Shown here in pieces: positions 891 to 64,000 of a stretch of DNA of 64,000 bases. A program made the position numbers and the translations under genes. Source of the stretch: Chlamydoabsidia padenii (lineage: Eukaryota > Mucoromycota > Mucoromycetes > Mucorales > Cunninghamellaceae); assembly GCA_025330725.1 (NCBI GenBank), contig JAIWND010000013.1, forward strand, positions 310,001-374,000. The letters are read 5' to 3'. Every line of letters begins with the position of its first letter. Within the stretch, counting starts at the first letter, position 1. The notes under the pieces were generated by a model, which ran no database searches, was not told where the DNA came from, and was given only the letters and a program-made list of their open reading frames with translations.

Positions 891-902
891 TTCAAATCCC
901 GC
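891..902. promoter_or_regulatory. Shared proximal promoter element TTCAAATCCCGC
   Basis: Exact copy of the recurrent element discussed in the findings. It sits between the divergent starts of RPS18 (ATG at 802) and the unknown gene starting at 964, 89 and 62 bp from them. No function is known to me; the recurrent position is what suggests a promoter role. Confidence 0.5.
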
Positions 903-963
903 ATGGGGATAAAATTCCCAACTTTATGCCGCAGCTTCCCTTTTTCTTTCTTTCTTTCTTGTA

Positions 964-2178
964 ATGAAGGGAAAAAGGAAGCTCAAATTAAAGTCCTACC
1001 AATACTCTGCAACCAACTCTATCCAGTCATCCACTCTCACCAACTGTCATTCAACAACAGATGCAACTTTGACAGTAAACGAAAAACTCGCCAAACTTCG
1101 ACTAGAACACAAGAGGACTCTCACCAATCGACAACGACATGACCCAGCTTCTTTTCAAGGCACCAGTAGACAACAACAAGATACTTTATTAAAGATTGAC
1201 ACGTATTGGATGCACCCATGGGCTAACTTGGATTTCACTACTTTCGAAAGGCCACCATCTCCACCTCGTCCTGAGCGACCACCTGGGCCACCACCTCCCC
1301 CTTCTTGGGATCGACAGCCAACACCAACTACTCCCACCCCTACTAATATAACATATATCTCACCACAGTCCTCCGCCTCATCAACCGTGCCGAGCTTGGT
1401 CAAGTGCTGCTGCCGAGTATTAGGGGCCCAGATACGTCAACCAAGACAACATATACCCACACATGTGAAACAACGACTGATGTGTGAATGGGGACCTTTG
1501 ATCACTGACACGACCATGTATCTATTTGAAAAAACCGACTATGACGAACTGTGGTTGGAATCCGCCCAAGTATCTCTCGAACGACTAGTGCAGGCGTTTT
1601 GGAAGGTAGGCAAGGTGGAAGAAATCGTCGAGGCATGGAATGACGACTGGGAACAACAAGAGGATACCACGACAACACTGCCATTGGTGCGACTGGAGCC
1701 AGATCAAGAAGACATTGGGGCATGGAAACACCTTAATCGAATCATGATGATATTACGGCCATCATCATCATCCCTTGTCACCCTTTCCAGTCCTTATCTT
1801 GGCCGCACTTTGGTCTCACTCAATATCTCGTGGATGACGCCTCGTGGTACGTTATCTTGGATCTCGTTTGCTCATCTCATGGTCTCGACCCTTCCTCAAC
1901 TTAAATGGTTATATTCGGCTGGCACATTTGATGCCATTCAAGGTCCTCAGGTGATGGCGATACTGGCGACTGGTTTGCGTAGGTTGACATTGTGGGATTT
2001 GTCTTGTCATCCTTGGCTGCAATTGGAGGTACTGATTATGGTGGATTGGCAGCGTGATTTCAGGGCATTGACAAATTTGGGCCTGTCTCCTCTCTCTACG
2101 AACAACAACAAGGCATTTCACGACTTGCTCAAACAACATGGGGTATCATCAAGAATCAACATCAATTGGCTAGAATAG
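964..2178 (+). CDS. Hypothetical protein with leucine-rich-like C-terminal half
   Basis: Single-exon frame of 404 aa. I do not recognise it. Residues about 95-125 are strongly proline-rich (PPSPPRPERPPGPPPPP). The second half has spaced Leu/Trp segments (LVSLNISWM, LPQLKWLYSAG, GLRRLTLWDLS, LTNLGLSPLS) that look like degenerate leucine-rich repeats of the kind found in fungal F-box/LRR proteins, but no clear F-box is visible. The chosen ATG follows a CT-rich leader typical of promoters here. A later Met is possible because the first 60 residues are low complexity. A poly(A) signal-like AATAAAAATAAAAA lies about 40 bp past the stop. Shares its upstream region with RPS18. Confidence 0.6.
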   Translation: MKGKRKLKLKSYQYSATNSIQSSTLTNCHSTTDATLTVNEKLAKLRLEHKRTLTNRQRHDPASFQGTSRQQQDTLLKIDTYWMHPWANLDFTTFERPPSPPRPERPPGPPPPPSWDRQPTPTTPTPTNITYISPQSSASSTVPSLVKCCCRVLGAQIRQPRQHIPTHVKQRLMCEWGPLITDTTMYLFEKTDYDELWLESAQVSLERLVQAFWKVGKVEEIVEAWNDDWEQQEDTTTTLPLVRLEPDQEDIGAWKHLNRIMMILRPSSSSLVTLSSPYLGRTLVSLNISWMTPRGTLSWISFAHLMVSTLPQLKWLYSAGTFDAIQGPQVMAILATGLRRLTLWDLSCHPWLQLEVLIMVDWQRDFRALTNLGLSPLSTNNNKAFHDLLKQHGVSSRININWLE

Positions 2179-3175
2179 TTAAAATGTAGATATAGTTAAA
2201 TGTGATCCACTTTATAATAAAAATAAAAATGCGTTTGTTTGTACCTTCAATTGACGTGGACCATAAATGGAAGACATGACGGGATTTAAAATACCAGACT
2301 CAGGTACCGGGAAAAAGTACTGTACAAATCATGCCACATTCAAAAAAAGACGAATTAGGTAACCTGATGATGGGCACTTTATTTTAAAAGGAGAATGGTT
2401 GGATCTATATGATGCTGATGAATAATAGCGGAGGGACAAAAAAAAAAAAGTTGTTTACCTATTATGTTATGGCTATCATGGGGAATATCTTTACAAAACA
2501 ATAACGTAAAAGATAAACATTATGTTCTGGCCGCCGCCGCCATATGATAACATCAAGCGGGGGTTGAAACTAGCCACTTTGTTGGGCCAGGCACATCATG
2601 GAAAAGGAGACCCATGATTCTCATTCAGGGCAAATGCTCATGGAAGGATTACATGCGTAGGGTAACGTCAGACAAAAAAAAAAGGTCGGTGATTGGCCAG
2701 GGGAGGGGGAAATGACAGGATATGTTTTTGTGGTTTCTAACCTTGATCATTGAATAGAATCATATGTTGACGGTATTACTTTTACATCAAGGCAGAGAAG
2801 ACAACCAAAGTGGTCTCTTTCTCATCTACAATGATTAATATATCCTTCTCCATTTTGTATGGTCCCTTTGTATCATACTAATATAGCAGAAACTTTTTTT
2901 TCTATTCTTCTATTCTTCCATCTTTTTCATTCACCGCCGGTGAAACCTTTTACGTAGCGAGAACGATTCATGCTGAACGGCCGTTTTTGTCCTGGTTCCT
3001 CGAAAGCGGCGTTTAAATATGTATTTTTCCTTTTTTTCTTTCCCCAAAATCCTTAAAAGCTATAACCCCTGTTTCTTTTCTTCTTCTTCCTCTTTCTTCC
3101 CCCAAAATTTTATTCCTCTTTTTATTTATTTATTCCTTCTTGTTACTTTTTTAACTCGCATTTAAATCCTTCTTG
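2179..3175. other. Intergenic region; long promoter of the C2H2 gene
   Basis: No coding signal seen. Contains a GACGGGATTTAAAA copy of the recurrent element (2278-2291), variants GCGGGGGTTGAAA (about 2558) and GCGGCGTTTAAAT (3006), and strongly CT-rich sequence from 2890 to 3170 leading to the next gene. Confidence 0.6.
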
Positions 3176-6132: not shown

Positions 6133-6265
6133 TGGTGCTCAATACTTTGTTTACTTCAAGCCTATCTATTACAACCCTTGTTGCCTTACTCTTACCAGTT
6201 ATAGCCGTAATCTCATTGGCTTTATATTTTACACTCCGCTTCAAAAATTCAAAAGCAAAAGATAA

Positions 6266-6338
6266 AGCCCTACGGGGGGGTCGAACCCCCAACCTTGAGA
6301 TTAAGAGTCTCACGCTCTGCCGATTGAGCTAGCAAGGC
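6266..6338 (-). tRNA. tRNA-Lys (anticodon CTT), copy A
   Basis: 73-nt cloverleaf on the minus strand. Acceptor GCCTTGC pairs with GTAGGGC; the anticodon arm TGAGA-CTCTTAA-TCTCA has loop CTCTTAA and anticodon CTT; the T arm GGGGG-TTCGACC-CCCCC carries the B-box GGTTCGA. No intron. Identical over its length to copies B (16243) and C (59511). All three sit about 0.5 kb beyond the 3' end of an F-box pseudogene. Confidence 0.95.
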
Positions 6339-6803
6339 TTTGATGTCAAGAAAATCGCTTGGTTTTATATAAATCACATTTTAATTTCGGGCCGATATTC
6401 GGCCCGAGTCCAAAAATATTTTTGATTTGTTGAAATTTTGGCTGTCTGATTCTCTGGTACGTTGGTGAATTTATTTCAAATGGCCTGTATTCATCCCAAC
6501 AAAGAATAACAAATATATTATTATAAAAAATGCTTGTCATTAATTGTAAAATGCTTTAAGCATTATGTTATTTAAGAAAAGAGAAAAAAAAGAGATTGAT
6601 GAAGATGGGATTGGGGGGATTCTATGAACGAGACAAAGAGAGCGGGATTTAAATCGTCAATGAGGATGAATTCCTCCTGAATCGAATGTTATAAAGGAAG
6701 ACATAGGGCAAAATACAAAAGAGTACGTTGGAGAAGTAGATTTTATTTCAAATATGTAAATATAAAAAAAAAAAAGATGAAATATATGGTTCTAGTATTA
6801 GTA

Positions 6804-7745
6804 TTATGCTATTTGAGTCAAAGCTTGTGAGGTATCTAGAGCATAAACAAGTAAAGATAGTAGTTCTGCATCACCAGTAGCCAGTTCGTGCATTTTTAGT
6901 TTCTGTGATTTGTCCACATATATCATTGTCGTTCCGTATTCCATGAATATCAATTGGGGTCTTGAGGAGAAGTTAAACTATGAAAAGAATTGTTAGTGTA
7001 CTGTGTCAACCCCCCCCACGTCTTTTTTTTTTTGTCTACCTTTCACAATCCCCAGAGACTAGTATGCATTCAGAGTCATACTTGTCACCACACTTGAATT
7101 GTCAAGCCCACACACTTCCCTCATTGCCGTTTGTGTATCAAAAATTTGATTCGATGATTATCAACATCCACTACCTTGACTCGGCCACCATGTCCCAAGT
7201 TGCTGTGATCCTGTATTTCCGTTTAAAGTATTGTCGATAAGAGAGGTTGAGTCGATGATTAGGAGGAGCCAGTAATTCGTCACCACAGATGCTAGAGTTG
7301 CGCCGTTGATATAATAAGTTGTGCAGAGTGACTTTTGGGTTGCTTCGTCACGGAGTAGAGGGTTCCAAAAAAAAAGTCGATACATGTGCTGCTCTTGCCA
7401 AGGTTTTGGGATCGTCAATGAAGGACACGACATGTAGTGATATTTCAAATGGCAGTTCTTTAAGGAAGTCTATTTTAAATCTTGGTGCAATAAGGCTGTT
7501 GAGATAAGATAGTTGTAAAATGTTGCAGCAGTTGATGAGTTTGTCTAAAAAGAGACCGATTATTATGAAGCCTTTGTCGTTGAGGTATTGGTGTTCGATT
7601 TATAAAAGAGGTTGAAGAAGAAGAGGAAGGACCAGTAAAGTTGAAGCTAAGTGGTGTTACAGGTGGTGACAATATTTCATCAGGTCCACAAATGTCCGCA
7701 AGTGATGAAGGTCCAGTCCAGTTTGATCGTGTAGGGGATACAACT
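6804..7745 (-). pseudogene. F-box/WD40-like (Cdc4/Pof1-type) pseudogene, copy A
   Basis: On the minus strand, scattered frames rebuild part of a substrate-adaptor protein for SCF ubiquitin ligases. A Ser-rich N-terminal segment is followed by the F-box FLKELPFEISLHVVSFIDD and PKTLARAA, then LLRDEATQKSLC, then NHRLNLSYRQYFKRKYR in a shifted frame, then VVDVDNHRIKVFDTQT, a WD-repeat-like strand, and a last exon-like piece ending LALTQIA-like before the stop at 6804. Frame changes and stops separate the blocks and most of the beta-propeller is missing, so the gene is dead here. A functional parent probably exists elsewhere in the genome. Paralogous copies at 16750 and 60020 share many of the same breaks, so decay preceded duplication. 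Confidence 0.75.
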
Positions 7746-8173
7746 CGTCATTATAGGAGTACGTAATAATGATGAGTGATATTGAGACGGATGAGGATCC
7801 AAATAGTTAACAACATAAAAGTATAAATTCCAGTGTAGAGAAGGAGAATAAGAGAGAATAAAGTAAAAGAAGATGCAATGTGTATGGATAAAAAAAGGGA
7901 AAAGTGGAGAAAGAAGGGGAGAATAGAAAACCTCAACAGAAAATTTTTTAATACCATTTCCATTTTTAAGCCACTACCTGCACGGATGATAATCTATTCA
8001 ATGTAAAACCTACATGATACAACTTGAATACTTGATTAAAGTATCCCTATTATAATTGGGAATGATCCATGAGTAAAGTGATTACATGGGCAGGGGGATC
8101 TTTTTCCTAATGCATTGTGTCCTGAATCTTTGGGTTTTGGAATTCCAACCCCGACTCATTCGTTTCGTTATAC

Positions 8174-8411
8174 TGTATGTGGAATGAAAATCGACACACA
8201 AGACCAAACTTGATTCAAAACCCGCTTACTCTTGCCTTGAAACTTGAGAGAGCTCTACTAGCTTAATAAACAAGTGATGCTAATGACAAAAGTGACCATG
8301 TGCATTCCTTAGTCTATTTCCAACAAAGTTTACATAATGGCCATTGTACAAAGTCCACTGTATGGAGCAATATAGCCTCAAGATTGTTTTACCCTGACTT
8401 TTGACTTTTGT
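8174..8411 (+). repeat. R1 240-bp repeat, locus 1 unit 1
   Basis: First of two tandem units. Shared landmarks are ACACAAGACCAAACTTGATT, CAAAACCCGCTTACTCTTGC, GAGAGAGCTCTACT, CATGTGCATTCCTTAG and ATTTCCAACAAAGTTTACAT. Similar pairs occur at 46.3 and 61.6 kb. Confidence 0.85.
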
Positions 8412-8429
8412 GAACAAAAAAAAAATTGC

Positions 8430-8640
8430 AGAATGGAAATTGACACAAAGACAAAATTTATTTCAAAACCCGCTTACTCTTGCCTTGAATCTTGAGAGAG
8501 CTCTACTGCCTTAATGAACAAGCGATGCTAATGACAAAAGTGACCATGTGCATTCCTTAGTCTATTTCCAACAAAATTCACATAATGGTCATTGTACCAA
8601 GTCACTTGTATGGCGCAATACAGCCTCACGATCGTTTTGA
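8430..8640 (+). repeat. R1 240-bp repeat, locus 1 unit 2
   Basis: Second tandem unit. It runs directly into a unit of the related R2 type at about 8640. Confidence 0.8.
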
Positions 8641-8940
8641 CGTAAAGAAAACAGTTTTCATTTTCAAAATCCGCCTGCCTCTACTAATATTGGGAGAGGG
8701 CTCCACTCAACGGATGCTAATGATTAAAGTGGCGATGTGGACACTGGCATATTTCCAACATAGGTCACCGAAAAAGTCAAGCAACAAGACCCTTGCGTCG
8801 CTCAGTCCAGACTTGCGATGACTTTTACCTTGTCTTTGCTACAAAGATTTTTTTTCTAGGCGAAAGGAAACTTCATTTTCAAACGCCGAACACCATAATT
8901 CCGTGCGCCTAGCAAGATCATTTGCGAGCGATCCATAGAT
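8640..8940 (+). repeat. R2-type repeat unit (diverged relative of R1)
   Basis: Carries TTTTCAAAATCCGCC, GGATGCTAATGATTAAAGTG, ATTTCCAACATA and, at its far end, TTTCAAACGCCGAACACC next to ATTCCGTGCGCCTAGC. The same blocks appear inverted at 41880-42370 and 54175-54420. R1 and R2 share block order, so they are two branches of one family. Confidence 0.75.
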
Positions 8941-10295: not shown

Positions 10296-12359
10296 TCCAA
10301 AAAAAGAAAAAAAAAAGTAGCTTTAGTTGTCGTCGATACTTCAAATAGCATACCTTGTAAGTCATTGCGGACTGCAGCCTTGTTTCTTTGTTGCAAGTGG
10401 ATCGAGTGAATTATAAACAAAGGAGAGAAGACAAAGGGAAAAAAAAAAAAAAAAAAGGAAGAAGGTAAATCACAAAAGGGCGTTTTAAAATCCAGATAGC
10501 TCTTTTTAGAGACAACAGTTTAATGTTTAAAAAGAGACAATGTTTATTATGTTTAAAGAGACTATTATAAAGACTAGTTCATTTAGTATTAACCAAACGT
10601 CGCCACGTGGAGGCAGAACTATATTGACGTTCATTTTCACATCTGCCTACTATGGGGATTTCAACCACTGGACAGCAAAATTTTCACATACCTGCCGCGA
10701 AGGGGATTTCAACCACTGGACAGCACTCTCTTCTTCTCATCTTTTCTCCTTCACGCCTTCTCTCTCTCCCACCTATTCCTCCCCCCCCCATTTTTTCCCA
10801 CTACTTACCTATTAACCAAGGACCGCTGGCGGATTTACTTGAATGATTATGAAGAGAAAAGAAAAAGAAAGAGTAAACAAAACAACACGAAAAAATTCTC
10901 TTTATTTATGCTTCGCCATGTTTTTTCAAATCCCGGTCTGGGCTCTAGACTTTATTTTCCCACTGTAACCTTATAGTTTTTACTACTTTCCTCAGGACTG
11001 ATCAATGTAATCCGAGAAAAAAAACATGATGATAATAATGGATTTGAATTCTGCGTCTATAGAAATGCGAATCAAGTTAAACGGATGATTTTGAAAAAAT
11101 CGACATGCTCATGTCAAAAGGGGGGGAGGTTGACATTTTTCCATTTTTTCGTCATCTAATGTTTTCATTGGCTAGTTATTGTTTTGAGTGATTTTCTTTA
11201 GATTACATTAGACTAATTGACTTGGATTACTACTTTGGGTTATGCTCTTCCTTTTTGATGGAAGGTAAGAGAAAAATGACCAGAGGAGCGGAATTTCAAT
11301 ATGCATAAACAAGTATTCAAATACCGACAATCTCCTCTTTCACTCGGATGAATCGTTTTTATCAAGCTGATGAGAGATAAAGTCAGGTCAACCTTTTCTT
11401 AAACCAGTTCAGGCTGTTTTCTATCTTGAAGATCAGCTGCAACTTGATCTAAAAAAAGAATAGAGGTGAAACCTGGGCATGCATGGTGACCTTCCCTCGA
11501 TTCCGAGTAAAAGTTCTCGGCCGACGGGATACCCCTGAAATGGAAATTTGAAGACAAAAAGTCATTAAATCAAAACTTGAAAGATTCAGTATGGAATAAT
11601 GTAAATATCAACAATGGTTTGTTTAGAGCCATGGCAATTATCATCAATTTATTTTCAAATCCCGCACACGGAGCCAAGTTCCGGTTAGCTCAACTACAGT
11701 AGAGAGGATACAAGGACAGTTAAAGTACTAGTGTACGTAAAGATATAATGTATTCTGTTGATATTTTCCTTACATTCTTTGCCGGTTTTTATGATTGGTT
11801 ATAGTCTTTAGTGGAAAGGAAGTAAAAAAGATTTGGGGAAAGGAGTTCGTTTCTTGATGGGGATTTGAACCCCCGCTTCAGGCAATTCAAAGTGGCTGTT
11901 ATTTGCCCCTCGCTCTTTTTTATATATATCCTTCTTCTCTTTATTCATTTATCATGCATTTACTATATTGCCATTATCAAACTCCATCAGTCTAATCAAT
12001 TGCAACAAACGAAGGATATCTTAGTATAACGAATGTGAGTTGATTCGTTCTCAACTCATTTGGGGCTATCCACACTATTAACCTTGTCCTTTCGAACTGG
12101 ATTAGACGACGATGCTGGTAATTCTATTCATGAACCTGGCAAAAAGCTCATGTAACAAAAAGAAAAAGAAAAGACTAATATTAGTTTGGGATGGACGAAT
12201 GCTATAGGTTATTACAAGAAATTCAAGCATATGCATATGGTAGACAACAACTGTGAAACTTGATTATTGTGGTAGGGTATAAACCTCTCAACAAGGCAAC
12301 AATACTTACTATACTAATTCGCTTTTTTTTTTTCTTTTTTCTTTCTTTTATTATTTATC
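10296..12359. other. Long non-coding stretch with scattered motifs
   Basis: No supported gene. Contains two exact recurrent elements (10925-10936, 11654-11665), a 23-bp direct repeat GGGGATTTCAACCACTGGAC at about 10654 and 10701, and at about 11855-11890 a tRNA 3'-half-like relic (minus-strand T arm GGGGGTTCAAATCCCC). Confidence 0.5.
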
Positions 12360-13010: not shown

Positions 13011-14446
13011 ATATAGATTTCCTTGTTATATAATACAGAAATAAATAAATAAAAAGCTAATGTCTTCATGTTTATTAAATGATGTGGTGATCTGGTTTAT
13101 TTTATTATACGTGAGGGGATGGGGTTCTTCTTTTTTGCTGTCTGCATTGGTAAATCAGACCATTAACATTCATCAGTGTAACACTAGCTACTTAATTCTA
13201 CTATGTACTTTATCTAACAAGAACATGCAAAAGGTTGAATCTAATCCAAAAGATTCTGGAGCTCACTCTTTGTAAATTGGGCACAAGTGGACTTTAATAC
13301 TTAAAACTCTAGTGAACTCTCTCTTTAAAAAAAATAATTCAGTACAAAATCCAAAAGATCTTTATTACAATTTACCTCTTTTATTATCAAGTTACAGGCT
13401 TGAGCTCTGTCTTTAGTGCTCTTCCTTTGAATAAGAGCCTATTTTCAAATCCCGACTTGCCTCGGTCGATCTTTTTTTTTTTCTTAAATTACCAAGTACA
13501 TTAAAGTACATCTTAAAAGTTGAATCTTACCAAAAAAAATTCTGGTGCTCACTACATTATTACATACAAAACATACACTTTAAACCTATGATACTCTAAC
13601 ATCTACAGATTTAGCCGTATCACTACTTTTATAACCCTTGTGTTGAGCCTGAGGCACAAAATTTCGGGCCTAATATGGACGATTTCCTGCAAGCCATCTT
13701 TGGCGTTAGTGCTGCTTTGGGTTGGGCGACCCAATAATCTATATTTTTTTAATCTATATTTTTTTCTGGCTTCTCATAATTTTTTTACCGCACTTACTGT
13801 CTTCACATTTTCTACCGTACTCACCGCCATGACCGCCCCCTTACATATAATTACCCCTTATTTCATAAATTAGTATAAATACCCCATCTTTCCCCACAAT
13901 TTATTCTTCTTTAGTTATATCTTATCATATATATTTACTCAACCCTCTTTTATATAAAATTCAGTACAAAGGACTTTGATCCACCAAAACTACTGTCTTA
14001 TTTTACTTTGTTTCTATCATCTATATAGAAACTTGATTTGTTTTTGACTCTATCATTGATATAGAAGTCCTTTATTTTATTATTTCAGACTATAAGTCTT
14101 GACTTTATTTTATTTTATTATTTTACTTCAAAGGTTGAATATTAACCACAAATATTCTGGTGCTCACTACTTTTTAAACTCAAACGATCTACTTGAATCA
14201 ATCCATCACTACAAGAGAGAAAAAGAAAATCAATTTAACCTCCGAACCAAGCACACTTTGACTGGTTCCTGAATTTCCTATTTGGACTCTATAAACGCAA
14301 ATTTACATTATCTAAAGATAATAACATATCTACAACACTCATATAAAACCACAAAAACCACAAAAACACACCCACGTTACCTAAATCCATACACATTTAG
14401 CCGTAACACTTGTTACCTAACCTGCAACCAGTTATAGCCGTAACAG
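13011..14446. other. Non-coding region with three hairpin-motif copies
   Basis: AT-rich. Holds hairpin motif copies at about 13237, 13522 and 14137, an exact recurrent element TTCAAATCCCGA at 13444-13455, and a TATAAATACCCC segment near 13875 resembling the TATA region of the LTR-like fragment at 59 kb. It is probably old retroelement debris flanking the tRNA-Lys copy B neighbourhood. Confidence 0.5.
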
Positions 14447-16187: not shown

Positions 16188-16242
16188 ACAGCATGATTTT
16201 ACATTTTACACTCCGCTCAAAAAACTCAAATGCAAAAGATAA

Positions 16243-16315
16243 AGCCCTACGGGGGGGTCGAACCCCCAACCTTGAGATTAAGAGTCTCACGCTCTGCCGA
16301 TTGAGCTAGCAAGGC
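16243..16315 (-). tRNA. tRNA-Lys (anticodon CTT), copy B
   Basis: Same 73-nt sequence and fold as copy A (CTCTTAA anticodon loop, GGTTCGA B-box). The LTR retrotransposon lies 55 bp beyond its 3' end. Confidence 0.95.
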
Positions 16316-16749
16316 TTAGATGTCAAAAAAATCAATTGGTTCTATATAAACCACGTTTTAATTTCGGCCCGAAGTTCGGCCCGATTCAAAAGGAGCTTTT
16401 TGATTGGATGAAATTTTGGCTGTCTGATTCTCTGGTAGGTTGGTGAATTCATTTCAAATGACCTGTATTCAGCCCCAACAAATAATAACAAACATATTAT
16501 TATAAAAAATAATTGTCATTAATTGTAAAACGCTTTAAGCATTATGTTAATTAAGAAAAGAGAAAAAAAAAGAGATTAATGAAGATGGGATTGGGGGATT
16601 CTTTGAACGAGACAAAGGGAGCGGGGTTTACATCGTCAACAAGCATGAATTCCTCCTGAATCGAATGTTATAAAGGAAGACACAAGACAAAATACAAAAG
16701 AGTGCGTTGGAGAAGTAGATTTTATTTTAAATATTTAAGTAAAAAAAGA

Positions 16750-17850: not shown

Positions 17851-17999
17851 ATAATGATGAGTGATATTGGGCTGGATGAGGATTCAAAGAGTTAAAAACG
17901 TAAAAGTATAAAGTCCAGTGTAGAGAAGGAGAATAAGAGAGAATAAAGTAAAAGAAGAAGAATAAGAAAAAAGGAATCTGACTTTATTCAAATTCAAAA

Positions 18000-18484
18000 G
18001 GTAGACGGAATTTAAAAATGTTCGTCACCCTCCAACTCAACGGATGTTATATGGATAGATGGTCACCTATGTTTTGGATGGATAGTGAATCAGTATTACA
18101 ATAAAGAAACAAATGCCTGACTTGGGCATTAATGTTTGGTGACTAAGGTTCTGTTTTTGTATAATGAACCATGTAGGCGGACGGGCCACTTTTTTTTTTT
18201 TTTTTTTTGATAAAAAGGGTGGCACGCTTTGAGTTCAATTGCAACATGTTCAAAGTACAATTTAAATAGCATTATTCGGTTTAGTATACTCATATCAATT
18301 TTATGGTAGGCTTTTTTATTGATGATGGTTGAGACAACAAGTCGCATGATGGGTGTAAGGTGGCAACATAATTTTCAAATTCCGCCAACGAGGGACGGAA
18401 ATTGGCCGTGTCCATAAACCTTTTCTCTCTCTCTTTTTCTTTAATCTTCTTTCTCCTCTTTCTCTTTCTCTCTTTCTCGACATT
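18000..18484. other. Promoter region of the ING gene
   Basis: No gene. Contains TTCAAATTCCGCC at 18374-18386, a one-base variant of the recurrent element 99 bp upstream of the ING start, then a strong CT-rich tract. Confidence 0.5.
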
Positions 18485-20158: not shown

Positions 20159-20172
20159 GGCGGGATTTAAAA
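20159..20172. promoter_or_regulatory. Recurrent promoter element GGCGGGATTTAAAA
   Basis: Exact core 76 bp upstream of the RIO1 start codon. Confidence 0.5.
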
Positions 20173-24180: not shown

Positions 24181-25791
24181 TTCAAGTATTAAGAGAGAGA
24201 GAGAGAGAGAGAGAGAGAATAAAAATTAAAAAGCTGAGAAAAAAAAAAAAAAAAAAAAGAAAAAGGTCAGGCTCAAACTATTTAAATCCCGTTCGAACAC
24301 CTATATCCGGTGTAACATCAACCCAATTTTCCCAGTTATTCATGTGAGGTATTGTCTTTTTTGGTAGCTTCAGTAAAAAGCCATCAATCATACAAGTGGT
24401 GATCTTTTTGTCATCTAGTTTATTTAAACCAGTTAGTAATATAATCATCATATAAACTAATAAAAACCCATAACTACACTACATTAAGCTAATTAGTCCA
24501 TAGTGATCCAAGTCCCAATGGGTGTTTATGTCAACAAGAAATCTGTCACTACATACAGTACATAATGAATCAAAAACCCTATTTATTAAGTTTGATGCAA
24601 CGCCTCTCCTCCTTATTTACCAAATGAGAGAAGGTATATTTTGTTGTCCAAACCATCGTTCAAACAGTAATACAGACTTGGTGCTACAAGATGAGGGTGG
24701 AGTACATATAATAAAGTTAATATGACCGCGCGTGAGTATCATCCCATTGGCCTCACAAGTTATCAGATCTTTTTTTTATTTTTTTATTTTTTTTACCTTT
24801 GTTCGTGTTCCCATTATTAAGACACAGTTAGTTCTTGATTTTTGATCCAAAAGTAGTTGATAAACCTAGACCATCCAATAGAGGGAAATAAAAGTTGGGA
24901 AAAGAAAGAGAGGATGAAAGGACCAGAATCTAAGCCGGGAAATGGCGGGAATTGAAATTAATCTGAAAGGTACGATGCACGGGAATGCTTTATCTCTTCA
25001 TCATCGTACCCTAATCCTTACATATACAATAACCAAATATGTTTCTTCTTCTTTTTTTTTTTTATATCGGAACAGGAAGAGCCTGTAATGAATCAGAAAT
25101 CTGATGGTACCTTGGTCGATCTTTGGGAATAAATCGAGTTCCTATTTTCTTCGATCCATCACATTTAAATCCCGATTATGCAGAAATATTTCGCCTCTTG
25201 TGTCAATTATACTTTCTTCCTCTTGGTAGATTTGACCATTAATGCGCGTGAGTGTGTTTCGCGTTGCCAGTGAGATTCAAATGGACGCTGTAATTAACGG
25301 ATTCAACAGGGGGTAATGATGTATGTCTTGTACCTGACACTTGATAACAAATGTTTTAGCCTTACTGTAGATGCCAATTAGTAACTATATTAGCTTTTTC
25401 ACTATTCTTTCCTTTGGGTTTTACCTATATATAGTTCTTCGTTTACAATGATGAATTCTGGAAACCCAGTCGGGATTTGAATCCAAGCCCAGGCTACTTT
25501 TTTTCTGCCAAATTGATTGCTAATTATAACAAACTGGTTTGTTTGCTACAAGTTGTATCTTTTTTTCTTTTTGTAACAATCATTCCAGATACTGTTTATT
25601 AAAGGAGAAAAGACTAACTTGATGAATAAAAGAGGATATACTCATTAAAGCAAACATGTGTTTTCCCCTGACAAGACTCTTTTTTTCAATCGCCGATAGG
25701 CTTGGACGTTGCGGCATGTGAAACAGAAGATCGCAGCATCGCTCTACCTAATTGACCCCACCTGTCGAGTGTAACAGGACCTGAAGATCCT

Positions 25792-26393: not shown

Positions 26394-27789
<1,396 letters not shown>

Positions 27790-30307: not shown

Positions 30308-30320
30308 GCGGAATTTAAAA
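30308..30320. promoter_or_regulatory. Variant element GCGGAATTTAAAA in the CLP1/PCID2 divergent promoter
   Basis: One base short of the recurrent core; 75 bp from the CLP1 start and 80 bp from the PCID2 start. Followed by a long A run (30333-30359). Confidence 0.35.
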
Positions 30321-34423: not shown

Positions 34424-34435
34424 TTTAAATCCCGA
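34424..34435. promoter_or_regulatory. Recurrent promoter element TTTAAATCCCGA
   Basis: Exact core 121 bp upstream of the GAPDH start. Confidence 0.5.
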
Positions 34436-38259: not shown

Positions 38260-38600
38260 ATACTTTATTTAATAAAACTGCTCTTTTTTATTTTTTTTTA
38301 ACTGTTGTATTATGCTGCTTTTCTGTTGTGATAACTGGGATCCCTTTTTTCTTGGGACCTGGGCGGGATTTAAAAACGGACCAACATCGATTTCAGAAAA
38401 AAAAAATGGGGGATTCTCTTTTCTTCCTGAAAAAGATTAATCTTGTCAATGATAACAAAGTACGTCATTTATAGCAAACACTGTATCTTCTCTTGATGTG
38501 TAGTTCTTGCCCTTGTAAACTGTGCCACAAATAATAGTTGATTATTAAACAAGGCAAGACCTCAATTGCGGACCTTCCACTTGTTTTATTAACACATTCT
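38260..38600. other. Convergent 3' flanks
   Basis: No gene. AATAAAA signal after DHFR and an exact GGCGGGATTTAAAAA element at 38362-38376, not near any start I can see. Confidence 0.5.
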
Positions 38601-39900: not shown

Positions 39901-41216
39901 AGCTATTAGTATAGTAGAATAGGATAATATAAAAAGGAAATAAATAAATAAATAAAGTTGATTTGTTTTTTATATATAAATGCTAGGAAGAGGCTAAATA
40001 TTAGAATAATGGGGTGTGATAGGGGGAATGGGCGGGATACCAAGCGGAAAGACGCTGAGCGGGAATGTAGTGTCAAATAAGAACAAGGGGATAAAAGACA
40101 GGTACCAACGTCCGATTCAATCGACGGTCCCTGTTCCACCAATGTCATCATTTGATATCAGTAGGAGTATATATGGGTATCCCGTCTCCTATTGACAGAA
40201 TATAACTGCTTGTTTCAACGTCACACACATAGGATATACAGACACTTTCCTTACCCTTTCATAGCTCATTATATATCATCCATTCAGTACTCTATCAATA
40301 AATGAACATATTTAGAGTCAAACACATATAGGCTTTCTTTTCTGGTCATCACTTGTCAAGACAGACAATGAAATGAATAGCGGTACAAATTCCACCTCCG
40401 CTTATTTTATTGATATGACAATATTTAGCCGTTATTCAAATCCCGCTCCGCCTGTCAATAAGCACTGTTTAGAGTGCATCGTGTAAGCGATTTCGGGTTT
40501 TCAAATTTTAAAAACCAGATTTGCATGAATTTCCAATTCCAGCAAACCAACTTTCATCGTAAGAAGTGATCTACAGGACAAGATATTCGACTTTTTTCAA
40601 AAAAATCCAGAGTCTTTTTCATCATGGTGTAAAGATAGGCAGAAAAAACTTGGGTATCTGGGTCGATGGAGCCATCTAATGATTATAATTTGGGCAATTA
40701 AAAATCAGTGGAACTGTGTATGGCGTTAAAATGGATGATAATAAATCAAAATCAAGTCCATATTTGCTGAAATAGACACTGCCCCCCCCTCTTTTTTGTT
40801 AGTCCTTCTTGTTTATTTCCACATCTTTATACTTTGTAATCATATGCCTTGTGTGGACTTTAATTGGTAAGCTAATGTTTAATGGCCAAAAGGAGAGAAG
40901 GCGACGGCATAGAATGAGGATCAATCAGAATCCACCTACCTTTTACTGCCTTCAAATCCCGTTTCCCCTTTTTTTAAATCCCGTTTTTACCTGTCGGGTG
41001 TAAATCGAGGGGGATGATCATTGGTGATTAGGTTTATAAACGATTGGAACAGAATTGTGGTCAGTAAACGGAAAATCGAATTTACACGTTTGTCGGCGGT
41101 GAACTCAACTCCTTAAATTCCCAGATTGTTGTTATTCCTCTTTCCTTTTATCCTTTGTTACTCTTTTTTTTTTTTTTTTTTTAGTCCTTACAATTAGTAT
41201 ATATATATCACATTTA
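39901..41216. other. Gene-poor stretch with a cluster of recurrent elements
   Basis: No supported gene. Exact elements at 40435-40446, 40951-40962 and 40973-40984, plus a near match TTTGAATCCCGC at 41288. TATA repeats and T runs near 41160-41210 look like a promoter for the relic at 41217. Confidence 0.5.
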
Positions 41217-42871: not shown

Positions 42872-42886
42872 GGCGGGATTTGAAAT
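42872..42886. promoter_or_regulatory. Recurrent promoter element GGCGGGATTTGAAAT
   Basis: Exact core 57 bp upstream of the small membrane-protein start at 42815. Confidence 0.45.
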
Positions 42887-42899: not shown

Positions 42900-44032
42900 C
42901 ATTCTCCAGTTTTTTTTTTGTGAAAGGAACCTCATTTTATGTGGCCATTACTTTAGTTCATAAAAAAGAAATCATAGATGACGTTATTTTGGTTCTTGCT
43001 TACAGGTGCTCATATGGCTCATTGTATAGAAGAATGTGCAATGAAAAGAATGATGGGTTCCGAGCCTTAGGGATTCAAATCCCGCTTCCAATCAGGATTC
43101 AAAAATCGGGCGAGATGGTTTTTTCTCCTTCCTCTTTCCAAATGCATTATCACCTACCCCAAAGCTCAATGCCATTCAACTATAACTTTATGACACTCGC
43201 CTACTTGATTAAACAACATGATCACTCTCAACACAAAACCTGACTCGAAACTGAACAGATGTTGAATGATGTAACCCATACTACCCTTGGAAAAGGTAAA
43301 TAAAGATAGAAACACGCCCCAGAGTATACTATATCCCTAACTTCTTTATGTCAAGTATAGATATCATGTTACAGGACTTCTGCTCATGGATAGGAAAGTC
43401 ACCTTCAAAAGGGAATAAGAAGCACTTGAATTAAAAGTATGTTGTGCGCTATCATGCTGATTAAAACCTCGACTAATATCTTCCCTCCTTTTTTTTTCCC
43501 AATTGATTGTCTCTTGTGTTGTAGGCTTCTCCATATGACCAGAAAGCGTGGACAATTACATCAACAAACTTGAACCCAACTTTGATTCACTTTAACATTC
43601 ACTCTTATCACAACCAATTGACTAGGATCATGCACGTAAGGGATCCCAAGATAGCGTCAGCAACAACTTGTATACTACAGCAAGGATCACTTTATACATT
43701 AACTAGGACCATCACCAATACACTACTTACACAATGGCACATTACTTACTTGACGATCGTGATTGCATCCAGACATCCTCTTCCTTGTTTTTTATAGCCT
43801 TTACTTCCCTTTATTGCACACCATACTATTACTTTAGATTACACTACCCCCTTTTAATCAGCTATATGATTGATTTTATAATAAAGCTTTTATGGATCCC
43901 ATGGTAGACACATACTGTCGCCAAATGGTGCTTGTATGTAACCAATGACAATAATACATGATTTCGTCTGTCAAATCTAGTTTTTATTAATAATGACTAC
44001 ATGTATGATGGGGTGACATGACTAAAACTAAT
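42900..44032. other. Intergenic, no supported gene
   Basis: A 107-codon frame at 42920 lacks family features and overlaps an exact element (43073-43085). The rest is AT-rich 3' flank of APRT. Confidence 0.4.
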
Positions 44033-46755: not shown

Positions 46756-46769
46756 ATAAATAACAAAAT

Positions 46770-46890
46770 GACGTAGAATGAGATTTGTGTTTTGAGAGAG
46801 GGTGGGGGTGCTTGTCGGGGAGTGCATGGCGATTTAACGGTACTCATTTTCAAGTTTGTCTGGGTTTCAATTTACGTGATTTATGGGGGA
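46770..46890 (+). repeat. R1-associated downstream module
   Basis: TTGTGTTTTG, GGGTGGGGGTGCTTGT and GCGATTTAACGGTACTC match 62060-62215 after R1 locus 3, so the module travels with the R1 pair. Confidence 0.75.
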
Positions 46891-47116
46891 AGGGAAAGGT
46901 TCATTATCGTCCCATTAATTGTAATATCTACTTATGGAGAGATTCGAGTTTTGATTTCTCTTTACACCACACTATCTCTTTATTCAAACCCCGTGATTTG
47001 TGCAAAAGCCCACTTGAAAAAGAGATTCGGTTTTTATTAAAGAAGATTACAAAGATAAATAATTATAATAAAACAGTAAGTATTAGGTAATATGTATACA
47101 AAGAGAGTAAGAGTAA

Positions 47117-52040: not shown

Positions 52041-52052
52041 TTTCAAACGCCG
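52041..52052. promoter_or_regulatory. Variant element TTTCAAACGCCG in a divergent promoter
   Basis: Between the starts of the SIP3-like (51950) and PEX26-like (52165) genes, 91 and 113 bp from them. Confidence 0.35.
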
Positions 52053-53852: not shown

Positions 53853-55040
53853 TGTCTATTTCTTTATCCATTAAAAAAAGAAAAGGCAGGGTTGGATTGG
53901 AAATGTGAAGAGGTGTTTCCTTAAGTGTCGACTATTAACCTCGCTGAATACAATAGTTTCGGAGAATGCAAAGAAACCTCCCCCCCTATTTGCATGAAAT
54001 AGGAAACATTTTGAATTTCCGCTCTTGAAGGTAATCTACATGTATAAAAAAGTAGACACTGAAATATATGTTGAGACTGATAATTATACAAGGTGGCATT
54101 TATTCCAAACGTTTTGACGTGCCTGACATCCATTTTGCCATCTCATAGTGTATACTTTTTTCTGCACTTCGCTGGTAATTGTTAGGCGCACGGAATTTTT
54201 GGGTTTCGGCGTTTGAAAATGAAATTTCCTTTCCTCTGGAAAAATAAAATACTCTTCATCGCAAAGGACAGGTAAAAGTCATTACAAGCCTGAACATATT
54301 GAAACAAGGATCTTGTAGCTTGGCTTCTGCAGTGAATTATGTTGGAAATATGCTATAGTGTCCACATCACCACTTTAATCATTAGTATCCGTTGACAATT
54401 GGAGCGAGTAGTGCTCGTCTTATAAAATGATGTAGCATCATTATCGCTATCCTTCTTTTCATGGTCTTCGTCCTTCTATTAATCAATACCGTCATCTCGT
54501 ATAAATCCCTGCAACTGCAGAAAACTCTTACTCCAACCAAAATAATAAAAGTAACATAGCAATAAAAGGTAATACTGTAAAAAGACAAGTGAGCAAATGT
54601 TATCCGGGGTTTGAAAATATCGGAGTCGTATCTGCATGATCGGTGGCTAAATATTCATTTTCACTGTTATCGCTTAACCGCTCGACTTTGAAACAACTTT
54701 GAGCTCGATATTTGCTACTTCCACGTTATCCATCACCACTTGTACCTTGAAGTTCAGCTCATATAAAACTACCCTGGGACCTTTTTTTTAATATTTGTAC
54801 CAAGGTAATGCCACCTTCTCTTCCTTTTACTTTTAACTCAAGTCATACTTAAAAAAGTAAGTTGAACCCCGTGCTAATTTTGATGAACCCAAGGCACCTC
54901 AGACCGATATGCATGTGAAGCAGGTGTTTTCTACTTTAGGAAGTTTTCGAGTTATTGTTACACTCGTTGTATGGGTGGTGGTGGTATTTTCCCACTCTAT
55001 TATATAATTGATCAATTTCAATTCCCCGCCTTTCTTTCGC

Positions 55041-57150: not shown

Positions 57151-57162
57151 TTCAAATCCCGC
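57151..57162. promoter_or_regulatory. Recurrent promoter element TTCAAATCCCGC
   Basis: Exact 12-base copy 149 bp upstream of the eL30 start. Confidence 0.5.
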
Positions 57163-58224: not shown

Positions 58225-58957
58225 GAGGTTTATTGATTTCTTCTAATGGAGAGGATATGGAGTAAAAAGAGGATTGGGTGACAAATGAAAAAGAGAAGAA
58301 GAAAGAATGAAAAAGAAAAGGATTTAAAGCTCAGTCGGCGTTTCAATCTTTTGAGGGGTGCCTTTTTAGTCACGGTGCTAATTTTCGCCCAATCAAATGA
58401 TAGCTGTCTGTATTCAGTGTTTGATCATACAAGGACGATATTAAACAAAACTGTTATTTGTCATCCAGTCATGCATTGGAAAAATTAGTCTTTGATTCCC
58501 AGTTTTTCAAAAAACATATACATGACGGTGGTAGATCATTTTTACTTATTTCAAACCCCACCGAGATGTCGATTCAAAAAGGAAAATGATACAATGTTGA
58601 CATCCACCTTAATAAATTATGTTTCTGTCACTATTGGCACTCATATAAAATGTGGAGAGTTATGCATATATGGTTGTTCTCTTTTATATTTTGCTCTAGC
58701 ATTTTGAAAAAGATGGTTCGCTGTAGTAGGGCGCATGATTTTTGCCTCGTTTGAAAAGCCGACATTGATGCCGGCCCTATAGAAGTCAAATTAAGCCTGG
58801 GAGTCAAAGCGAGGAATATGTGTGGTTGGAATGATTTTGTTAGAGACAATCTATCAGTATGAATCATTGTGGCGTAAGGACGACTACCATCTGATGTTTC
58901 CAGCAAGAAATTACTAGGATCAATATTACGCTTCATCACCGAAATTCCAAAACATAG
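58225..58957. other. Intergenic, no gene seen
   Basis: AT-rich; a 112-codon minus frame at 58631-58969 has no family features. Confidence 0.5.
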
Positions 58958-59257: not shown

Positions 59258-59510
59258 TCCGAATTTGGATCAAAAGGTATGTTTTCTATGTAATAAAGTA
59301 GTGAGCATCAGAATATTTTTGGTAAGATTTAACCTTTAAGGTGTACTTGAATGTAAGAGAAAAAAAAAAAAGAGAACCTAAGATACTCTAACATCTACCA
59401 GATTTGGCCGTATCACTACTTTTATAACCCTTGTTACCTTACCTGCAACCAGTTACAGCATGATTTTACATTTTACACTCCGCTAAAAAAAACTCAAATG
59501 CAAAAGATAA

Positions 59511-59583
59511 AGCCCTACGGGGGGGTCGAACCCCCAACCTTGAGATTAAGAGTCTCACGCTCTGCCGATTGAGCTAGCAAGGC
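59511..59583 (-). tRNA. tRNA-Lys (anticodon CTT), copy C
   Basis: Same 73-nt sequence and fold as copies A and B. The unoccupied equivalent of the LTR-element target (GTTACAGCATG) lies about 55 bp past its 3' end. Confidence 0.95.
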
Positions 59584-60019
59584 TTAGATGTCAAAAAAAT
59601 CAATTGGTTCTATATAAATTACGTTTTAATTTCGGCCCGAAATTCGGCCCGATTCAAAAGGATCTTGTTGATTGGATGAAATTTTGGCTGTCTGATTCTC
59701 TGGTAGGTTGGTGAATTCATTTCAAATGACCTGTATTCAGCCCCAACAAATAATAACAAACATATTATTATAAAAAATAATTGTCATTAATTGTAAAACG
59801 CTTTAAGCATTATGTTAATTAAGAAAAGAGAAAAAAAAAAGAGATTAATGAAGATGGGATTGGGGGATTCTTTGAACGAGACAAAGGGAGCGGGGTTTAC
59901 ATAGTCAATGAGCATGAATTCCTCCTGAATCGAATGTTATAAAGGAAGACACAAGACAAAATACAAAAGAGTGCGTTGGAGAAGTAGATTTTATTTTAAA
60001 TATTTAAGTAAAAAAAGAT

Positions 60020-60247
60020 GAAGTATGCTATTTGGGTCAAGGCTTGTAAGGTATCTAGAGCATAGACTAATAAAGATAGTAGTTCTGCATCACCAGTAGC
60101 CAGTTCGTGCATTTTTAGTTTCTGTGATTTGTCCACATATATCATTGTCGTTCCGTATTCCATGAATATCAATTGGGGTCTTGAGGAGAAGTAAAGCTAT
60201 GAAAAGAATTGTTAATGTACTGTGTCAACCCCCTCCCCCCCACCACG

Positions 60248-60280
<33 letters not shown>

Positions 60281-60619
60281 CTTTTACCTACCTTTCACAA
60301 TCCCCAGAGACCAATATGCATTCAGAGTCATACTTGTCACCACACTTGAATTGTCAAGCCCACACACTTCCCTCATTGCCGTTTGTGTATCAAAGACTTT
60401 GATTCGATGATTATCAACATCCACTACCTTGACTGGGCCACCATGTCCCCAAGTTGCTGTGATCCTGTATTTCCGTTTAAAGTATTGTCGATGAAAGAGG
60501 TTGAGTCGATGATTAGGAGGAGCCAGTAATTCGTCACCACAGATGCTAGAGTTGCGCCGTTGATATAATAAGTTGTGCAGAGTGACTTTTGGGTTGCTTC
60601 GTCACGAAGTAGAGAGTTC

Positions 60620-60654
<35 letters not shown>

Positions 60655-61150
60655 GATACATGTGCTGCTCTTGCCAAGGTCTTGGGATCGTCAATGAAGG
60701 ACACGACATGTAGTGATATTTCAAATGGCAGTTCTTTAAGGAAGTCTACTTTGAACCTTGGTGCAATAAGGCTGTTAAGATAAGATAGTTGTAAAGTGTT
60801 GCAGCAGTTGATGAGTTTGCTAAAAAGGCTGGTTTCTGTTGATGGTTTGATGATACAGTTGTTGGAAGAAGGTGTAATAGGGTTTACTTGTACGTTACCA
60901 GTAATATTGGCAGTATGAGAAGGATAATCCAAGATGCATCAGACCGATCATCATGATGCCTTTGTCGTTGGATGTTGGTGTTCGATTAATAACAGAGGTT
61001 GAAGAAGAAGAGGAAGGACCAGTAAAGTTAAAGCTAGGTAGTGTTACAGGTGGTGACAATATTTCATCAGGTCTACAAATGTCCAAAAGTGATGAAGGTC
61101 CAGTCCAGTTTGATTGTGTAGGGGATATAACTCGTCATTATAGGAGTACG
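60020..61150 (-). pseudogene. F-box/WD40-like pseudogene, copy C
   Basis: Third decayed copy, close to copy B. Blocks: PPVTLPSFNFTGPSSSSSTS, TETSLFSKLINCC, FLKELPFEISLHVVSFIDD, then HVSTFF running into a homopolymer that expands it to eleven Phe codons, then NHRLNLSLFHRQYF-like sequence in another frame. The A run at 60621-60651 is 31 nt where copies A and B have 9. Confidence 0.75.
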
Positions 61151-61563
61151 TAATAACGATGAGTGATATTGAGATGGATGAGAATTCAAAGAGTTAAAAA
61201 CGTAAAAGTATAAAGTCCAGTGTAGAGAGGGAGAATAAGAGAGAATAAAGTAAAAGAAGATGCAATATAAATGAATAAAAAAAGGGAAAAGTGGAGAAAG
61301 AAGAGGAGAAAAGAAAATCTCAACAGAGAAATTTTTTATACCATTTCCATTTTCAAGCCACTACCTGCATGGGTGATAATCTATTCAATATAAAACCTAC
61401 GTAATACAACTTGAATACTTGATTAAAGTATTTCTATTATAATTGGGAACGATCCATGAGGTGAAGTGATTACATGGGCAGGGGGATCTTTTTCCTAATG
61501 CATTGTGTCCTGAATCTTTGGGTTTTGGAATTCCAACCCCGACTCACTCGTTTCGTTATACTG

Positions 61564-62030
61564 GATGTGGAATGAAAATCGACACACAAGACCAAACTTG
61601 ATTCAAAACCCGCTTACTCTTGCCTTGAATCTTAAGAGAGCTCTACTGGCTTAATGAACAAGTGATGCTAATGACAAAAGTGACCATGTGCATTCCTTAG
61701 TCTATTTCCAACAAAGTTTACATAATGGCCAATATACCAAGTATCTTGTATAGAGCGGTATAGCCTCAAGATCGTTTTAACCTGACTATTGTGAAAAAAG
61801 TTGCAGGATGAAAATTGACACACAAGACAAAACTTATTTCAAAACCCGCTTACTCTCGCCTGGAATTTTAAGAGAGCTCTACTAACTTAATGAACAAGCG
61901 ATGCTAATGACAAAAGTGACCATGTGCATTCCTTAGTCTATTTCCAACAAAGTTTACATAATGGTCATTGTACCAAGTCCTCTGTATGGAGCAGTATAGC
62001 CTCAAGATTGTTTTAACCTGACTTTTAAAA
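61564..62030 (+). repeat. R1 repeat, locus 3 (two tandem units)
   Basis: Units about 61564-61790 and 61806-62030, very like the 8.2-kb pair, which also directly follows a tRNA-Lys/F-box copy. Confidence 0.85.
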
Positions 62031-62240: not shown

Positions 62241-62559
62241 GACAAAAGCATCTATTTTATTACTGTGCTAGATCTTCAATGCACATTAGGATAAGTCAAG
62301 ATATCAAACAACACTAATAACATCCACAATCCAAAGTATTAGAAAGATACGATGGATGATAAAAAAAAATAAAAGTTCAAAGCAGCCTTCACACTGCCAA
62401 TACAAAAAAAGGATATAGTCGGAGTTTGATGATCAAATTGATGCATGAATCACATTAAGGACAGATTTTAATCATGTCTATTTTATTACAAGTGAGTTAA
62501 AACACAAAGCTACATAATATACAACATAACTAATCTAATACATAAAAAAGAGTATTTCA

Positions 62560-63630
62560 AAGAGTATTTAAGACTAGGCAAGACCAGATTGTTGTATTTG
62601 CTGGGCGATTGATTGTTGATGGCACAAGATCCTTCAACGAAACAGGAGATATTCGATTTCAGCAACAGAAGACGTCAAAGTGATATACCCACCATGCTTC
62701 CATGGCATATACCGCCACCAATCAATTGTAGACCTTTGATCATCCGAGCCAGTTCCACGATATCCACACACCCATAGATATATGTACTTTGGAGTCATAA
62801 AAGATCAACTCTGCTAGATCCTTTTGGTGTGATGATAGGTAAGAGTCGAGTCGGTGTCGAGAGGTCTGCCGTGAATATATAATACTATCGTTAATGCTGC
62901 ACAAAGATTAGTCTAATCCCATCCAAAGGAAACCTGTGATTTGATTAGTAAGTGTTTTAGTATCTTGTTATGGTCCCTTATTAAACAACCTTTTTTTCAA
63001 TATGACTATATCTGTTTCTATATGTCAAATACGCATTCATCAGCAAAGGTAATCATGGAAGGTCAGATCCAATACTTTAGATCCATAGTCAACGGTGTTA
63101 TCAAAGGAGACAAATAAGGTCTCCATTCCCTACAATAAACAACAAATGATTAGTATATCATATTATCATCCACCGTCCTTTTTTTCTTTCTCCTTCTTCT
63201 TTTTACCCTACTGTACCTTGTATTACACCCACTTGAGGAGAAGCCACCAGAGTTACAATACAGTACCTTGTGCAACTAATTATTGATATAGACCCAAGCA
63301 TGAGCCTTTAGTCTACTTGAATAGACAAAAATCCTTGTTCAGTGATGAGTCATTGCTGTCTTACTACATTACAAGTAATTTTACCTTTAATGAGGAGGTG
63401 CTAAAGTCAAAGGTGTAAAGAGGGATTCGTGTTGGTGTTGTCGTAGCTATACTTTATTGATTTGTTGAATATATTCGCTTTAGCAGGGTACTTGAGTGGC
63501 TGCTATATAATATAAAAGGTGGTTAGTCATTCAACAAAGAATCAGTTATAGCACTAACCTTCGGTGTAAAGTGGTCTACGTTTCGGTAAGGATTAATGAT
63601 CGTCCATGGGGGAGTGTTATAACTAAATAA
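62560..63630 (-). other. Cluster of exon-like segments, unresolved minus-strand gene or pseudogene
   Basis: Protein-like minus-strand stretches bounded by splice-like sites: YNTPPWTIINPYRNVDHFTP (about 63565-63624), QPLKYPAKANIFNKSI (about 63460-63505), TRIPLYTFDFSTSSLK ending in a GTAAAA donor (about 63388-63440), METLFVSFDNTVDYGSK after TTATTGTAG (about 63060-63135), then DIVELARMIKGLQLIGGG near 62700. I could not join all of them in one frame and do not recognise the family. Either a diverged multi-exon gene or a decayed one. Confidence 0.3.
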
Positions 63631-63639
63631 AAAAGTGGT

Positions 63640-64000
63640 GTCATTCCAATAAAGTAGTTATATTCAAGTTGAATGGATTAACACATAGCTAATGTGGAAG
63701 GTAGGGGAAAAAAAAAAAAAAGAAGAAAGAGGGGAAAATGTTTCGGAAGCAACCCGACCCACTGAATATATATTCAAATCCCGCCACCTGCCCTGACTTT
63801 TTAGTAGACAATGATCGATGGTATTATTGCCTAGCCAAATCAATATTTTAAAGCATGATGTTCCTGTAGCTTATTCAATAGTGATTCACAGAGTAATTTT
63901 GATCAACCATGTTAAAGAAGGGGGGAAACAGTTTCATCATTTTCACACGCCGCCTGCATGAACTTTCATTTTCGAAGAGAACTAGATTGGGGGTGGTGTA
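63640..64000. other. Window end, no gene seen
   Basis: Contains an exact TTCAAATCCCGCC element (63773-63785) and the variant TTTCACACGCCGCC near 63942. Confidence 0.5.

Follow-up and report, generated by a model that had tools for sequence, protein, structure and literature searches.

The window and its element sites

A short sequence element, TTYAAATCCCG in its exact form, recurs on both strands of a 64-kb stretch (the window) of the genome of Chlamydoabsidia padenii, a member of the Mucorales. The assembly of this genome spans 34.2 Mb in 95 contigs. The window was analysed together with 200 kb of contig C1, and this 264-kb sample underlies the counts below unless a different scope is named; short stretches from elsewhere in the genome were added later. 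Genes were modelled with a home-made predictor, which gave 131 models with introns of median length 72 bases and the consensus GTAAGT...TAG. An earlier predictor with 5th-order statistics was replaced because it found too few genes (75). Pfam recognised seven of the nine window models submitted, although one of the seven, Pex26, scored below the curated cut-off. In addition, a model of 346 amino acids (aa) in the window is identical over its entire length to a public C. padenii TAP42-like record. The names RPS18, RIO1, GAPDH, DHFR, CLP1, SIP3, WHI2, eL30 and RAD6 go beyond Pfam and are those of the initial annotation of the window or were given by eye. The CLP1-like model (28474-30233) retains one in-frame stop, probably because the predictor chose a wrong splice site.

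Looser forms of the element were located with a motif model of 16 positions, with an order-3 background and a fixed prior; a first refinement, which drifted to CT-rich sequence, was discarded. At the threshold used, simulated DNA contains 0.05 sites per kb. The model found 204 sites in 94.9 kb of intergenic DNA, where simulated sequence gave 4.75. Exons contained 12 sites in 125.7 kb. Twenty exact matches had been listed for the window, and all 20 coordinates proved to carry one. These sites, and the variants nearest to named genes, are:

891..901, forward strand: exact element, single, common to the divergent genes RPS18 (reverse strand) and 964-2178 (forward strand), 94 and 68 bp from their predicted ATGs
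2280..2290, reverse strand: exact element, 107 bp beyond the stop of 964-2178 and 891 bp before the C2H2 gene
3007..3017, reverse strand: variant TTTAAACGCCG, 164 bp upstream of the C2H2 gene
6643..6653, reverse strand: exact element in copy 1 of a repeat, altered in copies 2 and 3
10925..10935, forward strand: exact element, with no modelled gene of at least 100 aa within 400 bp
11654..11664, forward strand: exact element
13444..13454, forward strand: exact element
18374..18384, forward strand: variant TTCAAATTCCG, 106 bp upstream of the ING gene
20161..20171, reverse strand: exact element, 83 bp upstream of RIO1
24281..24291, forward strand: exact element, 106 bp upstream of HSF (reverse strand)
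25164..25174, forward strand: exact element
25471..25481, reverse strand: exact element, 918 bp before Anp1
27332..27342, reverse strand: exact element within a predicted intron of the Anp1 mannosyltransferase gene
30309..30319, reverse strand: variant TTTAAATTCCG, common to the CLP1-like gene (reverse strand, 81 bp) and the PCI-domain gene (forward strand, 86 bp)
34424..34434, forward strand: exact element, 126 bp upstream of GAPDH (reverse strand)
38364..38374, reverse strand: exact element in the convergent DHFR/arrestin-like intergenic region
40435..40445, forward strand: exact element, 540 bp before the arrestin-like start and the nearest exact site to it
40951..40961, forward strand: exact element, first of a same-orientation pair 22 bp apart
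40973..40983, forward strand: exact element, second of the pair
42874..42884, reverse strand: exact element
43074..43084, forward strand: exact element
52042..52052, forward strand: variant TTCAAACGCCG, common to the SIP3-like gene (reverse strand, 97 bp) and the PEX26-like gene (forward strand, 118 bp)
57151..57161, forward strand: exact element, 154 bp upstream of eL30 (reverse strand)
58336..58346, reverse strand: variant TTGAAACGCCG, 117 bp upstream of RAD6
63773..63783, forward strand: exact element

The exact sites at 11654, 13444, 25164, 25471, 42874, 43074 and 63773 have no gene assigned to them. Of the 25 window genes that encode 100 aa or more, 18 have a model-scored site in the 300 bp upstream. 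Exact or near-exact copies had been assigned to the upstream regions of a series of genes, and most of these assignments stand: RPS18, the 964 gene, the C2H2, ING, RIO1, HSF and CLP1 genes, the PCI-domain gene (earlier called PCID2), GAPDH, TAP42, SIP3, the PEX26-like gene, eL30 and RAD6 all have a site 68-164 bp upstream. The assignments to the mannosyltransferase (Anp1), arrestin and WHI2 genes were not confirmed at the model threshold within 400 bp. A pair resembling that at 40951-40983 is found at C1:720601 and C1:720624, 23 bp apart. Altogether, 27 adjacent pairs of elements lie within 120 bp, with a weak grouping at 22-27 bp.

Sequence and abundance of the element

The near-invariant core of the element is TTYAAA-N2-CCG with a fixed spacing. 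Written out, the element is (W)TTYAAA-N2-CCG-(MY), its best form being TTCAAATCCCG; the TTYAAATCCCG first noticed is the best form of this slightly looser site. When the spacer was allowed to vary in TTYAAA-N2-CCG-MY, the two-base spacer occurred 79 times against 1.0 expected, the three-base spacer 11 times against 1.7, and spacers of none, one and four to 11 bases 0 to 3 times each. The TT, AAA and CCG tolerate little change, as C at the fifth base was seen 12 times and T at the sixth 17 times, compared with 79. The third base is preferably C, then T, then G. The preferred spacer is TC (43/79), followed by AC and CG, the AC count owing much to one repeat group. Restricted to the 200 model-scored sites whose flanks are unique, the spacer counts are TC (92), CC (33), CG (20), TT (17), TG (11) and AC (8). 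The base after CCG is A in 99 and C in 103 of all 230 model-scored sites, and flanks more than about 3 bases from the element are near background. A palindromic zinc-cluster site with two CGG triplets was also considered and rejected: CGG-N2-TT(N0-3)AA-N2-CCG occurs at only two places, and the element is therefore asymmetric as a rule.

The 20 exact matches in the window stand against an average of 0.06, and never more than 1, in 100 dinucleotide shuffles, and matches with at most one mismatch number 36 against 3.46 expected. Genome-wide, exact TTYAAATCCCG occurs 5102 times (2555 + 2547) and the reversed pattern 5 times (3 + 2). Likewise, TTNAAAYCCCG is found 8115 times versus 41, and WTTYAAATCCCGMY 3421 times versus 1. 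When 8-mers of predicted promoters were ranked by z-score, AAATCCCG (28 vs 0.9 expected) came next after AAAAAAAA and two AG-repeat words.

Position relative to genes

Intergenic DNA makes up 96.5 of the 264 kb (36.6% of sampled bases) and holds 52 of the 58 exact sites; three others lie in predicted exons and three in predicted introns, counting genes of 100 aa or more. The initial annotation had stated that no copy lies in a recognised coding exon. Avoidance of coding sequence is indeed strong, but it is not absolute, because 3 of the 58 exact sites of the sample fall in predicted coding exons. For 27 exact sites, a gene of 100 aa or more starts no further than 400 bp downstream (5/20 in the window and 22/38 on C1).

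All gene distances were measured to predicted ATGs, and genes below 100 aa were excluded from the promoter counts. A model-scored site was found at most 300 bp upstream of the ATG in 83 of 108 genes and at most 500 bp upstream in 89. Within 300 bp, 72 genes have one site, 10 have two, one has three and 25 have none. The median distance to the ATG is 113 bp, with quartiles of 90 and 165 bp. The element was reported to occur in both orientations, and this is borne out, with 45 sites in the direction of the gene and 50 against it (P 0.68). When the same 206 intergenic sites were placed at random within intergenic DNA 1000 times, 46.7 genes on average and 62 at most had a site within 300 bp, compared with the 83 observed. 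In the same 264-kb sample the enrichment also holds within 200 bp of the predicted ATG: 77 of 108 genes have a site there, whereas the 1000 placements averaged 36.2 genes and never exceeded 53. An earlier randomisation, which set all 230 sites against 206 random ones, had the same observed values as this matched version.

The type of intergenic region gives a further measure of position. Gaps below 60 bp were excluded, and in the main version gaps above 800 bp as well. In the resulting 60-800 bp regions, a site is present in 24/29 tandem, 14/16 divergent and 4/20 convergent cases (tandem plus divergent versus convergent, Fisher P 1e-6). The corresponding counts are 39/44, 18/20 and 8/24 for regions of up to 1500 bp, and 43/48, 25/27 and 11/27 for regions of up to 3000 bp. 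Exactly one element is present in 9 of the 16 divergent regions of 60-800 bp, so that one copy often lies between two starts.

Promoter surroundings and other parts of the genome

A pyrimidine-rich tract is found gene-ward of the element whichever way the element is oriented. It is strongest 50-100 bp away, and at 50-75 bp the base fractions are 0.51 for T and 0.26 for C. Runs of A/T of at least 8 bases occur within 60 bp in 39/81 promoters versus 14/81 control windows. Pyrimidine-rich and A/T tracts are features of open promoters in yeasts. CTCTCT/GAGAGA tracts are also strongly enriched upstream of predicted genes, gene-ward of the element.

Because the motif model had been trained on the 264-kb sample itself, upstream DNA from elsewhere in the genome was scored at the same threshold. 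Independent stretches of about 1 kb upstream of 15 proteasome and five Ras-family genes have a site in 14 of 20 cases, and independent histone and MCM upstream stretches (0.75-1 kb) in 10 of 13. The promoters of three paralogous histone clusters are strongly diverged, and much of their flanking DNA no longer aligns well; in most copies the elements nevertheless occupy corresponding positions, by visual inspection. Five of the eight histone upstream stretches (L055, L057, L058, L060, L062) also contain ACGCGT- or TCGCGT-like words, which we take to be possible SBF/MBF sites.

A putative general regulatory factor

By its sequence pattern, the element is promoter-enriched, usually single, orientation-free and mostly placed 90-165 bp upstream of predicted ATGs. 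It stands at most sampled predicted promoters, in front of functionally unrelated genes and often as a single copy between divergent ones. This suggests that one putative protein marks most promoters. The element is probably recognised by one abundant sequence-specific protein, which would act as a general regulatory factor in C. padenii. A general promoter element of the lineage had been offered as a second reading in the initial annotation, and it gains support from the position of the sites, the type of intergenic region, the breadth of genes and the promoters elsewhere in the genome. A single protein or rigid complex would read both half-sites as one rigid site. By holding nucleosomes off the promoter, helped by A/T tracts and remodellers, the bound factor would fix where the polymerase machinery starts on either side of the element. 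A wider proposal, so far tentative, is that a single lineage-specific DNA-binding protein with an orientation-free site of about 13 bp serves as a near-universal promoter marker in the Mucorales or in the Cunninghamellaceae branch. This one site might then define most promoters of the genome, so that the promoter code would depend on one factor, where yeasts and animals use many.

Several observations weigh against a general regulatory factor. At the model threshold, 25 of 108 genes have no site within 300 bp, and 13 of the 78 genes of 200 aa or more have none within 500 bp; the siteless genes include an isocitrate-dehydrogenase-like and a large polymerase-like protein (names by eye). Some sites are far from any modelled gene or lie in convergent regions (8/24 at up to 1500 bp), the exact element at 38364..38374 being one counter-example. 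In some copies of the histone paralogues the element appears, by eye, degraded or absent. Also, the gene starts are those of a home-made predictor and the motif model comes from the sample that it scored. Independent support is confined to the 33 stretches elsewhere, which show presence in about 1 kb and not position.

The main rival is that an ordinary activator or repressor, serving a broad regulon of growth or housekeeping genes, binds the element, which would then track expression class and not promoters in general. Ribosomal, proteasome, histone, MCM and RIO-kinase genes, many of them growth-linked, carry the element in most cases looked at, and a quarter of genes lack it, as such a regulon would predict. 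However, genes unselected for function have it about as often (83/108 within 300 bp) as the chosen proteasome and Ras genes (14/20 in about 1 kb), and a growth regulon is unlikely.

A directional core-promoter element, initiator-like or like the downstream promoter element (DPE) and contacted by the basal machinery where transcription starts, would agree with the restricted distance to the predicted ATG and the nearby pyrimidine tract. This explanation is decidedly improbable, as the sites show no orientation preference (45 vs 50), 75 bp separate the distance quartiles, and a single copy lies between divergent genes in 9/16 regions.

The first reading of the element was an E2F half-site joined to a cell-cycle genes homology region (CHR) box, as in DREAM targets. 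This is not supported, since the core beside TTYAAA is N2-CCG and not TCCCGC. The genome does have six E2F or DP loci; they contain RRIYDITNVLEG (3) and RRVYDALNVL (3) stretches, the usual recognition motifs of these proteins. E2F-type strings are about twofold over shuffles (TTTSSCGC 19 vs 10.8, TTTGGCGC 5 vs 1.0, GCGGGAA 25 vs 13), and E2F may therefore have targets of its own, if few. This excess is far below that of the element. According to one study, LIN54 accepts TTYRAA with either central purine, a CHR consensus that TTYAAA fits, and DREAM targets combine a TTYRAA-type hexamer with a GC-rich box in their cell-cycle-dependent element (CDE)/CHR sites, which is the likeness to the present element (PMC4974476). 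In those sites the hexamer usually lies four bases from the E2F site, whereas here it is two bases from CGG (PMC4974476). Given the fixed TTYAAA-N2-CCG core, only CCG is required and the full E2F half-site is dispensable. Moreover, TTYGAA, an equally good CHR, is rare in the element: TTYGAA-N-CCCG occurs 6 times and TTYGAA-N2-CCCG 10 times, compared with 81 for TTYAAA-N-CCCG. The animal CDE spacing, SGCGG-N4-TTYRAA, was found once against 0.6 expected. The element is also not specific to cell-cycle genes, because S-phase genes are not enriched for it (10/13 histone and MCM stretches of 0.75-1 kb, compared with 83/108 genes at 300 bp and 89/108 at 500 bp), and a loose E2F pattern is present in 3 of the 13 S-phase stretches. 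Searches for the LIN54 CXC and LIN9 DIRP domains, run without a positive control, returned no match. Zygomycetes retain E2F and have lost pRb, and this loss likewise speaks against the DREAM analogy (PMC4862756). An E2F/CHR composite bound by a DREAM-like complex is thus highly improbable.

Adenine methylation marks active genes in some Mucorales, and the element could in principle be a DNA methylation signal instead of a protein site. Its best form contains ApT, and Phycomyces methylates VATB (PMC11258239). The prospects of this explanation are very slim, as ApT needs T as first spacer base (135/230 sites), whereas CCG and TT are near invariant. Among the matches listed, the motif passages of two papers on adenine methylation concern methylation motifs and not this element (PMC11258239; PMC12695648).

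A TFIIIC B-box (an extra-TFIIIC site) has scarcely any credibility, although TTCAAATCC resembles the tRNA T-loop box and the tRNA-Lys of the window has GGTTCGACCCC. TTCAAAYCC fits the B-box core. On the other hand, GG precedes TT in 1 of 230 sites only, the third base is T, G or A in 97 sites (C in 133), and CCG is near invariant though partly outside the B-box.

An origin of the copies as remnants of a dispersed repeat or transposon family can be virtually discounted and is refuted for the sample, since 200 of 229 model-scored sites have unique flanks and flanking positions beyond about 3 bases are near background; 29 have flanks in common with another site (in small groups, the largest of 10 members). 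This comparison covers 229 of the 230 sites, one near an end being left out; among exact sites, 4 of 58 have flanks common to another site.

Known systems and novelty

Several known systems can be compared with the element. The general regulatory factors of budding yeast (Reb1, Abf1, Rap1, Rsc3) likewise use short non-directional sites near A/T tracts, directly in front of unrelated genes, an arrangement suited to holding promoters clear of nucleosomes. The sequence differs, however, Reb1-like TTACCCG occurring 12 times against 13.6 in shuffles. Each yeast factor serves a minority of promoters, whereas the element here is at about three-quarters of sampled predicted promoters. The vertebrate ZNF143/STAF site is also proximal to the starts of many unrelated genes, and its ACTACAATTCCC resembles TTCAAATCCCG, but the ZNF143 core differs and does not require CCG. 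Fungal Zn2Cys6 sites with CGG triplets resemble the other strand of the element, CGG-N2-TTTRAA, in which the triplet stands at a fixed distance from an A/T box; unlike in those sites, the inverted CGG partner is rare here. The Trichomonas initiator is similar in that one element occurs in most promoters of a genome. It is directional and lies at the start site, whereas the present element shows no fixed orientation and precedes the predicted ATG.

A general promoter element is, as a kind, already known. Among the matches listed from the open-access literature, preprints being outside the scope, no description of this element was found. To our knowledge, such length, presence at about three-quarters of sampled promoters and freedom of orientation are unusual. 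If the reading as a general regulatory factor is true, most promoters of a fungal lineage could be read from sequence alone through one short element. It would also provide a simple handle for start-site prediction and expression design in Mucorales. The question of how a genome can depend on one factor for most of its promoters, and the evolution of such a factor, would become open to test.

Repeats that carry the element

Each of the three copies of a segment of about 2 kb in the window (6242-8620, 16219-17972 and 59487-61996) contains a tRNA-Lys(CTT). Between copies 2 and 3 the similarity is 97-99% in families D9, D10, D12 and D19, and the element of copy 1, GCGGGATTTAAA, corresponds to GCGGGGTTTACA in copies 2 and 3. 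In addition, a dispersed inverted repeat of 104-124 nt (73-82% complementary) lies at 8736-8870, 41949-42059, 42195-42298 and 54230-54353. Variant elements TTCAAACGCCGAA at 8883, 41917 and 54212 adjoin copies of this repeat, and one with shared flanks is found on C1. The largest element-bearing repeat group is a family at 8073-8620, 46288-46988 and 61461-61996, also present on C1, in which TTCAAAACCCGCTT or TTCAAACCCCGCTT occur about 240 bp apart.

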